From positions 1 through 64,000 of the forward strand of contig JAPHRO010000033.1 of the NCBI GenBank assembly GCA_026195895.1: DNA of 64,000 nt, written 5' to 3'. The stretch comes from Gammaproteobacteria bacterium (GTDB taxonomy: Bacteria > Pseudomonadota > Gammaproteobacteria > SZUA-229). The translations under genes were made by a program, and so were the position numbers. The notes beneath the pieces were generated by a model that saw nothing but the letters and a program-made list of their open reading frames with translations, was not told where the DNA came from and did no database searches. This document shows positions 55,041 through 60,022 of the stretch, one piece after another (position 1 is the stretch's first letter; each line of letters starts with the position of its first letter).

Positions 55041-55901
55041 TCAGGCTTCGAAAGAGGTTCTAAGTTTTTTCATCGCATTTTTTTCAAGCTGTCGAATACG
55101 TTCTGCTGAAACCTGGTATTTATCGGCCAGATCATGCAGCGTGGCTTTGTTGTCGTCGTCCAGCCAGCGAGACATCAGAATGTCTTTACTGCGCTCGTCC
55201 AGTTGATCCATGGATTCAGCCAGTACCTGCATTTGTTGCTGTTTCCAGTCATCACTTTCCAGTTGTCTTGCCGGGTCGCTGATTGGGCTGGCGACAAAGC
55301 TGGCAGGCGCGGCATAACTATCGTCGTCATCATCGGTGCCAGAATCAAAAGCCATATCATAATTGGCCAGGCGGGCCTCCATTTCGAGAACGGTTTCTGG
55401 CTTAACGCCCAGGTCTTTGGCGACGCCTTCGACTTCTTCCTGAGAGAACCAGCCCAGACGTTTTTTGGAGCTACGCAGATTAAAGAACAGTTTGCGTTGT
55501 GCCTTGGTGGTCGCTATCTTAACGATGCGCCAGTTGCGTAGTACAAACTCATGAATTTCTGCACGAATCCAGTGAACTGCAAAGGATACCAGTCGGACAT
55601 TACGGTCAGGCTTAAAGCGTTTGACGGCTTTCATCAGGCCGACATTACCTTCCTGAATCAGGTCGGCGAGCGGCAGGCCATAACCCTGATAGCCACGTGC
55701 AACACGCACTACAAAGCGAAGATGCGGCATAATCAGTTTCTGCGCGGCGTCCAGTTCATCATGCTCAGCCAGGCGTATACCCAGTTCATGCTCTTCTGCT
55801 GCTGTCAGCATTGGAATGGCATTAATCCGCTGGATATATTGATCCAGGCTACCGCTGCTTATGGGTAGATGATTTTGGGCAAGAATCAGTTCGTTTGTCA
55901 T
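55041..55901 (-). CDS. rpoH: heat-shock sigma factor sigma-32
   Basis: [66 protein letters not shown] (RpoH box). Confidence 0.96.
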
Positions 55902-55934
55902 ATAAACTCAACTCCAATTGTCTCTGTGACTATA

Positions 55935-55961
55935 TTAGCACTCAAACAATAAGAGTGCTAA
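55935..55961. promoter_or_regulatory. CIRCE element (HrcA operator) upstream of rpoH
   Basis: TTAGCACTC-AAACAATAA-GAGTGCTAA, exact match to TTAGCACTC-N9-GAGTGCTAA. Confidence 0.92.
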
Positions 55962-56011
55962 TCACAATATAAGTTCCTGTTAATAATGAAAAAAGAGACT
56001 AGCTGTAGGGT

Positions 56012-56875
56012 TTATTGATTAGCCGAGATGGCATTTTCCGGATGATGCAACTGTAAATATTGCTGGCGCAGGGTCAGCAGGGTGTTGATGCGAGCAACCA
56101 GCATGGGTTCTCTGATGGGTTTTTCCAGGATGTCATTTGCCCCGGCTGAAAAAATGCGATTGAGTCCATCCGGGTCGGCGTCGTAGTTGCTGGAGGTGGT
56201 GACCAGAATAGGTAGTTGCTCGTAGCCAAGGCCTATACCATAACGAATTTCCCGAATCAGGTCACGGCCCGACATATGACCTTCTAGCTGGATGTCAGTT
56301 AGTATGAGATCAAATGGCTGCACATTGTGCGTCTCATTAAACGAATGCTGGATATTCTGTAGCGCATGTTCGGCGTCTTTTGCCAGTAGATAATTGTGAC
56401 CATGCTGCGTCAGAAAGCTTTTTACCGCCTGGGCCACGGTCGCGCTGTCTTCGACGTAAAGAATATTGCCGGTAATGCTGGCTGCCGGGCCATCGTAGCT
56501 TAGAAATGATTTTATATAGCCGACCAGTTTTTTTTGTCCCAGTTTTTTATCGAAGTAGCCATTCACATACTGGCAGGCGATCTGTTCTTCTAAAACACCC
56601 ATGTCCTCACCGGAAACCACGATCAATGGTGTGCGGTAATTATGCAGTTCAACCCGAATTTTTTTGACCAGGTCGTGGCAGTCGATATCGGGCAGGTTGC
56701 GTGACATGGTGATCAGTTGATATTTATTTTTGATCAGCAGCTCAATCGCCTCGCCTGAGCTGGTGGCAATGTCTACTATGGTATTGCGAATATGCTTATG
56801 GATCAGTTTGGTGATAATAGCCAGGGCCGTGCCCGAATGGTCTATTAACAGAACCCGTTGTTCTTTTTTCGTCAT
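56012..56875 (-). CDS. response regulator with two receiver domains and no output domain; N-terminal receiver degenerate
   Basis: C-terminal REC has VEDSA/LILTDIQLEG/EKP; N-terminal REC-like LLIDHSGT/LITMSRNLPDID lacks the phospho-Asp at its normal position. Confidence 0.82.
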   Translation of the reverse strand: MTKKEQRVLLIDHSGTALAIITKLIHKHIRNTIVDIATSSGEAIELLIKNKYQLITMSRNLPDIDCHDLVKKIRVELHNYRTPLIVVSGEDMGVLEEQIACQYVNGYFDKKLGQKKLVGYIKSFLSYDGPAASITGNILYVEDSATVAQAVKSFLTQHGHNYLLAKDAEHALQNIQHSFNETHNVQPFDLILTDIQLEGHMSGRDLIREIRYGIGLGYEQLPILVTTSSNYDADPDGLNRIFSAGANDILEKPIREPMLVARINTLLTLRQQYLQLHHPENAISANQ

Positions 56876-58801: not shown

Positions 58802-60022
58802 TCAGGTTTCTCGATCCAGCAACGCATCGACAAATTCCCGAGCATGGAATTCGCGCAGGTCGTCGATACCTTCACCAACACCGATGAACCGAATCGGTAT
58901 ACCCAGTTTTTCGGCAATGGCGAAGACGATGCCGCCCTTGGCGGTGCCATCCAGTTTAGTCAGTGCCAGACCTGTCAGTCCCATCGCTTCATTGAATTGC
59001 TGTGCCTGAATCAGACCGTTCTGACCAAAACCCGCATCCATTACCAGCAATACTTCGTGGGGCGCAGTGTCATCGAGTTTTTTCATCACGCGTTTTATTT
59101 TGATGAGTTCATCCATCAGGTTGGACTGGGTGTGCAGGCGGCCGGCAGTATCGGCGATAACGATGTCGATGTTTCTGGCGCGGGCAGAGTCGATGGCATC
59201 ATAGATGACCGAGGCGGAATCCGCGCCAGTGCCCTGGGCGATAACCGGGATGTCGTTGCGTTCGCCCCAGGTTTGTAATTGTTCGACGGCCGCGGCGCGG
59301 AACGTATCGCCGGCGGCCAGCATGACCTTATGTCCCTGGTGCTGGAAGCGCCTGGCCAGCTTGCCAATGGTGGTCGTTTTACCGGCGCCGTTAATACCCA
59401 CCACCAGAATGACGAAAGGTGAACGGGTCGAGTCAATAGTCAGTGGTTGATTGCAGGGTTGCAGGATATTTTCCATATCATCGCAGAGCGCTTCGAACAG
59501 CGCTTCGGCGTTATTCAGTTCCTTGCGGGAGACACGTCGGGTCAGATTGTTGATGATTTTACTGGTGGCCTCAATACCCACATCGGCCATGATTAAACGT
59601 GTTTCCAGCTCCTCCATGAGTTCATCGTCGAGGGTTTTTTTACCCAGTACCAGATCTGCCATGCCATCGGTGAGGCCATGACGGGTTTTGCTCAGTCGAT
59701 TGCGCAGGCTGGAAAATAAGCCCGGTTTTGATGCTTTTTCCTGCTTATCATCGGTTTCGGTTTCGGTTTCGGTTTCGGTTTCGGTTTCGGTTTCGGTTTC
59801 GACTGTAGCGGCTATAGTTTCTTCAGTAGTCGATTCAGCTACTGCTACAGTCGGGACTGGCTCGACCGGTGTGTCGGGTTTTTCTACGGCGTCAATAGCT
59901 TCGGGAGCTTCGGGCGGGGCTTCAGGTTCCACCAGTTCCGTTGCAGGTGACGCATTTTCAGCGGGCAGTTCTTCTGCTTCAGGCTTTGTTTTATCTTTGT
60001 TGCGGCGTAGGAAACCAAACAT
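58802..60022 (-). CDS. ftsY: signal recognition particle receptor FtsY
   Basis: VVGINGAGKTTTIGKLARRF; DTAGRLHTQSNLMDELIKI; acidic N-terminal domain. Confidence 0.96.
   Translation of the reverse strand: MFGFLRRNKDKTKPEAEELPAENASPATELVEPEAPPEAPEAIDAVEKPDTPVEPVPTVAVAESTTEETIAATVETETETETETETETETDDKQEKASKPGLFSSLRNRLSKTRHGLTDGMADLVLGKKTLDDELMEELETRLIMADVGIEATSKIINNLTRRVSRKELNNAEALFEALCDDMENILQPCNQPLTIDSTRSPFVILVVGINGAGKTTTIGKLARRFQHQGHKVMLAAGDTFRAAAVEQLQTWGERNDIPVIAQGTGADSASVIYDAIDSARARNIDIVIADTAGRLHTQSNLMDELIKIKRVMKKLDDTAPHEVLLVMDAGFGQNGLIQAQQFNEAMGLTGLALTKLDGTAKGGIVFAIAEKLGIPIRFIGVGEGIDDLREFHAREFVDALLDRET
59751..59801. repeat. hexanucleotide tandem repeat (TCGGTT)~8.5 inside ftsY
   Basis: Uninterrupted TCGGTT units encoding (Glu-Thr)n on the minus strand. 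Confidence 0.95.

Follow-up and report, generated by a model that had tools for sequence, protein, structure and literature searches.

A predicted HrcA operator interleaved with a sigma-E-type promoter at rpoH, recurrent in hrcA-bearing Gammaproteobacteria

Introduction

The two classical circuits of the bacterial heat-shock response, the HrcA repressor and sigma-32, are usually presented as running in parallel or as alternatives to each other. CIRCE, the operator of the repressor HrcA, is classically found before groESL and dnaK, and rpoH of E. coli is controlled by an mRNA thermosensor and several sigma factors, not by HrcA. Within E. coli rpoH control, P3 is a sigma-E promoter active at high temperature. 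The stretch of gammaproteobacterial DNA analyzed here (64,000 nucleotides, referred to as the window) carries a CIRCE element directly in front of rpoH, raising the question of whether the heat-shock sigma factor gene may itself be under HrcA control and, if so, how such control would relate to the promoters from which rpoH is transcribed. Here, we combine a search of the window and of the 3.33 Mb genome with comparisons of rpoH upstream regions across the Gammaproteobacteria to address both parts of this question.

Results

The rpoH gene of the window (55041..55901, minus strand) encodes a sigma-32 protein of 286 aa that scores above cut-off against both TIGR02392 (397.6 bits, cut-off 323.1) and PRK06596. 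Our pattern scan of the window placed an exact 9-9-9 CIRCE, TTAGCACTC-AAACAATAA-GAGTGCTAA, at 55935..55961 with no mismatch, in agreement with the original prediction for this locus. Read in the rpoH sense (minus strand), the left arm TTAGCACTC occupies 55953..55961 and the right arm GAGTGCTAA 55935..55943, so that the full TTAGCACTC-N9-GAGTGCTAA pattern is present in the promoter or leader region of a heat-shock gene. The gap between this predicted HrcA site and the rpoH ATG is 33 nt; the proximity that had been predicted holds, and the distance is corrected from about 34 nt. No other CIRCE match at three or fewer mismatches occurs in the window (shuffle expectation 0.02). At the same threshold the whole 3.33 Mb genome contains two sites, both exact, one before rpoH and the other, a further site of the kind that the original prediction had suggested looking for, before groES, whereas a reversed control pattern gave no match genome-wide. 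Simple arithmetic puts the chance expectation for 18 fixed bases in 3.3 Mb at about 5e-5, and a CIRCE before rpoH that is both exact and nearly unique is therefore far beyond chance.

The genome also contains the cognate repressor gene. A single, intact hrcA encodes a protein of 346 aa with no internal stop (PF01628, E 8e-67) that resembles the solved T. maritima HrcA, 1stz, which answers the first check proposed alongside the original prediction. The gene order around it is lolD-hrcA-grpE-dnaK, with only 5 nt between the end of lolD and the start of hrcA (L003 1447-3227, contig C50). The search found no CIRCE at hrcA and no sigma-32 promoter belonging to it, and a perfect sigma-32 promoter, CTTGAA-N14-CCCCAT, lies between hrcA and grpE. 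As hrcA lies upstream of this promoter and lacks a CIRCE, it is not obviously autoregulated here. Likewise, the best sigma-32 promoter candidate before rpoH has two mismatches and is far upstream, which gives no clear indication of autoregulation. The genome further encodes rpoE (RpoE above cut-off) together with an anti-sigma factor, the rseA- and rseB-like ORFs that follow rpoE having been read by position and sequence, not by family search; inspection by eye revealed no obvious sigma-E promoter upstream of rpoE itself.

The gene immediately upstream of rpoH, between it and ftsX, encodes a protein that has two receiver domains but lacks an output domain (56012..56875, minus strand; response-regulator matches over two stretches). 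A two-receiver protein gene also lies between ftsX and rpoH in a close relative (L007, 2020-2892), whereas E. coli, unlike this lineage, has no gene at this position. Elsewhere in the window, a coding microsatellite is present in the ftsY frame (around 59750-59800, minus strand), where the acidic N-terminal region carries a long run of Thr-Glu dipeptides.

To describe the sequence context of the operator, we aligned 98 rpoH upstream regions of the class on CIRCE. The alignment contains GGAACTT at -16 from CIRCE and TCTnA at positions 7-11, with T, A or C, and A at spacer positions 9-11 completing a TCTnA that begins in the end of the left arm, and with A-A-T after the right arm forming a TAAAAT across its edge. 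In our genome the corresponding letters are a sigma-E type -35 box of exact consensus, GGAACTT (55971..55977, minus strand), at the offset of -16 that is also seen in most of the class's rpoH regions with a CIRCE, followed after 16 nt by a sigma-E type -10 box, TCTTA (55950..55954, minus strand), whose first two bases coincide with the last two of the left arm. A general sigma-E pattern (GGAACTT, 15-17 nt, TCnnA) is therefore present at 55950-55977, and the stricter form GGAACTT-N15..17-TCTnA occurs only once genome-wide, at this same place (GGAACTT-N16-TCTTA). The culturable species Plasticicumulans lactativorans and P. acidivorans (L012, L020) show this architecture as well. A candidate sigma-70 -10 box, TAATAT (55932..55937, minus strand), overlaps the end of the right arm, and a weak candidate -35, TTAGCA (55956-55961, minus strand), lies within the left arm, 18 nt from TAATAT. 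A standard sigma-70 scan of the rpoH promoter made no call. Compared with TTGACA and TATAAT hexamers 16-18 nt apart, the -35 is weak, and the -10-like TAATAT is kept in register; the last-position T of this box is found in 87 of the 98 aligned regions. The TAnnnT box over the right arm is probably a sigma-70 -10 element.

The groES operators of the class served as a control for this arrangement. They lack all of these letters; their CIRCE directly follows the -10 box of a TTGAC..TATnA promoter and has a spacer beginning with AC, whereas the rpoH CIRCE lies inside the promoter and has a spacer beginning with TnA. Moreover, the sigma-E pattern often persists at rpoH genes that have no CIRCE (L021, L037, L076, L084 and others). 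Both features bear on an alternative account in which CIRCE represses rpoH but GGAACTT and TCTnA do not form a sigma-E promoter, transcription coming only from sigma-70 or from ftsEX read-through. GGAACTT within two mismatches is in register in 65 of the 98 regions, against a background of about 4, leaving around one third of CIRCE-bearing regions with a poor match, and the T of TAnnnT at the right edge of CIRCE is better conserved than GGAACTT. Furthermore, no terminator was found between the upstream gene and rpoH, and the upstream operon could feed a read-through transcript into rpoH that is free of the CIRCE promoter. Set against these observations, GGAACTT-N16-TCTnA reproduces the form and spacing of E. 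coli P3 at the same gene (TGAACTT-N16-TCTGA in the E. coli region that we compared), is unique in the genome, persists where CIRCE has been lost and is absent from groES operators, and we consider an exclusively sigma-70 or read-through origin of rpoH transcripts unlikely. On the reading that we prefer, the operator is interleaved with a predicted sigma-E promoter of the P3 type, and HrcA control at rpoH would not replace control by sigma factors. The original prediction, which set an HrcA circuit above the sigma-factor circuit, gains support from the presence of hrcA and from the conservation described below, but had missed the promoter with which the operator is interleaved.

The conservation of the element was assessed in 148 genomes of the class, drawn evenly and almost all of different families, in which rpoH upstream regions and hrcA were scored. 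CIRCE precedes 94 of the 102 rpoH genes of hrcA-bearing genomes, as opposed to 5 of 37 in genomes without hrcA, and the arms are perfect in 47 of those 102 regions. Mismatch counts in hrcA-bearing genomes fall into two peaks, one at 0-3 and the other mostly at 6-8, while reversed-sequence controls almost all lie at 5-9. A similar split is seen in 80 named GTDB RpoH loci, the best upstream match having either 0-3 or at least 6 mismatches; one of them, L070, was scored at 7 mismatches but actually carries a CIRCE copy with an 8-nt spacer. Among the nearest relatives of our genome, L006 and L007 carry a perfect CIRCE at about the same distance from rpoH, and it is likewise found before rpoH in G125, in line with the conservation that the original prediction would lead one to expect. 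In a second draw, over the phylum, CIRCE was present at rpoH in 4 of 4 class members with hrcA and 0 of 24 without, but in only 3 of 32 hrcA-bearing genomes outside the Gammaproteobacteria. CIRCE at rpoH is thus the rule in the sampled hrcA-bearing Gammaproteobacteria and rare elsewhere in the phylum, and the predicted HrcA wiring of rpoH, first presented as an oddity of this locus, is instead the usual state in members of the class that possess the repressor.

The association is also visible at finer scale. In the 34 named genomes checked for hrcA, every one with CIRCE at rpoH has the repressor gene, and those without CIRCE comprise both genomes lacking hrcA (Methylophaga, Wenzhouxiangella and others) and genomes retaining it. 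The latter include the sampled Chromatiaceae, some Ectothiorhodospiraceae, Halorhodospira, Nitrococcus and others, indicating that the HrcA-rpoH link is dispensable. Within one genus, G258 has both hrcA and CIRCE, whereas G156 has neither; within one family, G431 has both, whereas G127 and G337 lack both. The hrcA of G431 (L310) is divergent and its rpoH CIRCE is perfect, and with the family's other sampled genera lacking both, the pair was either regained or retained. On the RpoH tree, well-supported branches provide three to four independent pairs, of which 2.6-3.7 are concordant, a result that is not significant from an underpowered comparison. As relatedness inflates the hrcA and CIRCE counts, the association may in part reflect shared descent, and the same applies to the Fisher p obtained for the 148 genomes.

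Given that hrcA was not detected in some genomes that keep the element, it might be argued that the rpoH CIRCE does not influence the gene and is a leftover or decoy. Near-perfect sites occur without a detected hrcA in G083, G123, G116 and G014 (L217, L230, L180 and L232), and a degraded one in G069; the former may be relics, may reflect missed hrcA genes or may serve another reader, which means either that sites can outlive their repressor or that HrcA was missed. However, perfect arms here and in nearly half of the hrcA-bearing regions make selection visible across the class, and in the comparison of G156 with G258 the left arm has decayed in the genome without hrcA, although the right arm and the letters of the promoter are still there. 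A site without effect on rpoH is, in our view, very improbable. Other variants of the element were also encountered. Two loci from pseudomonad-like genomes without hrcA (L306 of G442, and L077) have a faded CIRCE-like repeat at the rpoH sigma-E promoter, which in G442 reads TTGCAGTC...AGTGCTACA. In G008 (L197), a second half CIRCE, AGAGTGCTAA, directly precedes the rpoH CIRCE, and its position suggests tandem operators.

A perfect inverted repeat upstream of a start codon could also work at the RNA level, forming a hairpin in the leader of the rpoH message that affects stability or thermosensing, and not as a DNA operator. Several observations speak against this possibility. A transcript from either predicted promoter would begin within the right arm or beyond it, and the full repeat would therefore not be transcribed; the sequence of the spacer goes with the promoter; relatives often show changes in one arm only (TTGGCAC..GTGCTAA), which breaks the symmetry of pairing; and the presence of CIRCE tracks hrcA. 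The leader with the start of rpoH, moreover, folds no better than shuffled sequences (z = 0.57). We regard a role as an RNA hairpin as extremely unlikely. An RNA thermosensor of the E. coli rpoH type was likewise rejected, on the same fold result, obtained for the leader plus the initial ~200 nt of the coding region, and on a comparison of rpoH and its flanking sequence with Rfam, which returned nothing above gathering score, only sub-threshold chance matches.

Discussion

The combination of an exact operator, an intact repressor gene, interleaved promoter letters and recurrence across the class enables us to propose, with considerable confidence, that the rpoH CIRCE truly functions as an HrcA operator, lies within the promoter of the gene and confers GroE-dependent repression. 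We infer HrcA binding, repression, GroE titration and the use of both promoters from sequence comparison. The notion that GroEL availability would gate RpoH synthesis draws on HrcA biology in other bacteria, where GroE raises HrcA binding to CIRCE (PMC6032397). In this model, free GroE in an unstressed cell would keep HrcA active and bound to CIRCE, covering the -10 boxes of the predicted sigma-E promoter and of the putative sigma-70 promoter. As both -10 boxes would be covered, both promoters are expected to be blocked, and little sigma-32 would be made. When GroE becomes occupied by unfolded protein, HrcA would turn inactive; because its activity needs GroE, a shortage of chaperonin would free groESL and rpoH together. 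Derepressed rpoH output would then scale with sigma-70 and, under envelope stress, with sigma-E, and the resulting sigma-32 would drive grpE-dnaKJ from its own sigma-32 promoter.

This arrangement can be compared with several known systems. It shares operator and repressor with the groESL and dnaK operons that are controlled through HrcA and CIRCE, and groES in this genome has an identical site, but the target here is the gene for a sigma factor. The CIRCE-rpoH link itself has a precedent in Geobacter sulfurreducens, for which a perfect CIRCE was predicted 51 nt before rpoH (Rodionov et al. 2004, PMC545781, Table 8). That prediction concerned a single genome of another phylum, with neither a sigma-E overlap nor a class-wide pattern described, and there the hrcA operon also has a CIRCE, unlike hrcA in our genome. 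Our search of the open full-text literature, to which the closest earlier survey (Permina and Gelfand 2003, covering proteobacteria of the beta, gamma and epsilon classes) does not belong, found no report of a class-wide CIRCE-rpoH link or of the sigma-E overlap. CIRCE at rpoH has thus been predicted before, whereas that literature yielded no account of it as a class-wide element embedded in the promoter.

The closest promoter parallel is E. coli rpoH P3, which depends on sigma-E (PMC2909356; PMC8745692). The two share the gene, the ftsE-ftsX-rpoH neighborhood, the type of -35 and -10 box and the 16-nt spacing, and differ in that E. coli has neither hrcA nor CIRCE, whereas in our genome operator and -10 box overlap. 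We see roughly an even chance that the gammaproteobacterial heat-shock response originally had an rpoH promoter of the sigma-E/sigma-70 kind repressed by HrcA and that the E. coli circuit is what remained after the loss of hrcA. If so, the sigma-E -10 box of E. coli P3 would sit at the former end of the CIRCE left arm, and E. coli would have kept the sigma-E-driven P3 together with post-transcriptional control of sigma-32.

In the organism studied here, the HrcA and sigma-32 circuits would stand in series at one promoter, and our comparison suggests that this was the usual state in Gammaproteobacteria before the enterics, pseudomonads and others lost hrcA. Such wiring would make groESL and rpoH a single co-repressed pair that reads chaperonin load. 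Envelope stress, acting through sigma-E, would be the other input, and the origin of the P3 promoter of E. coli could be explained in the same way.
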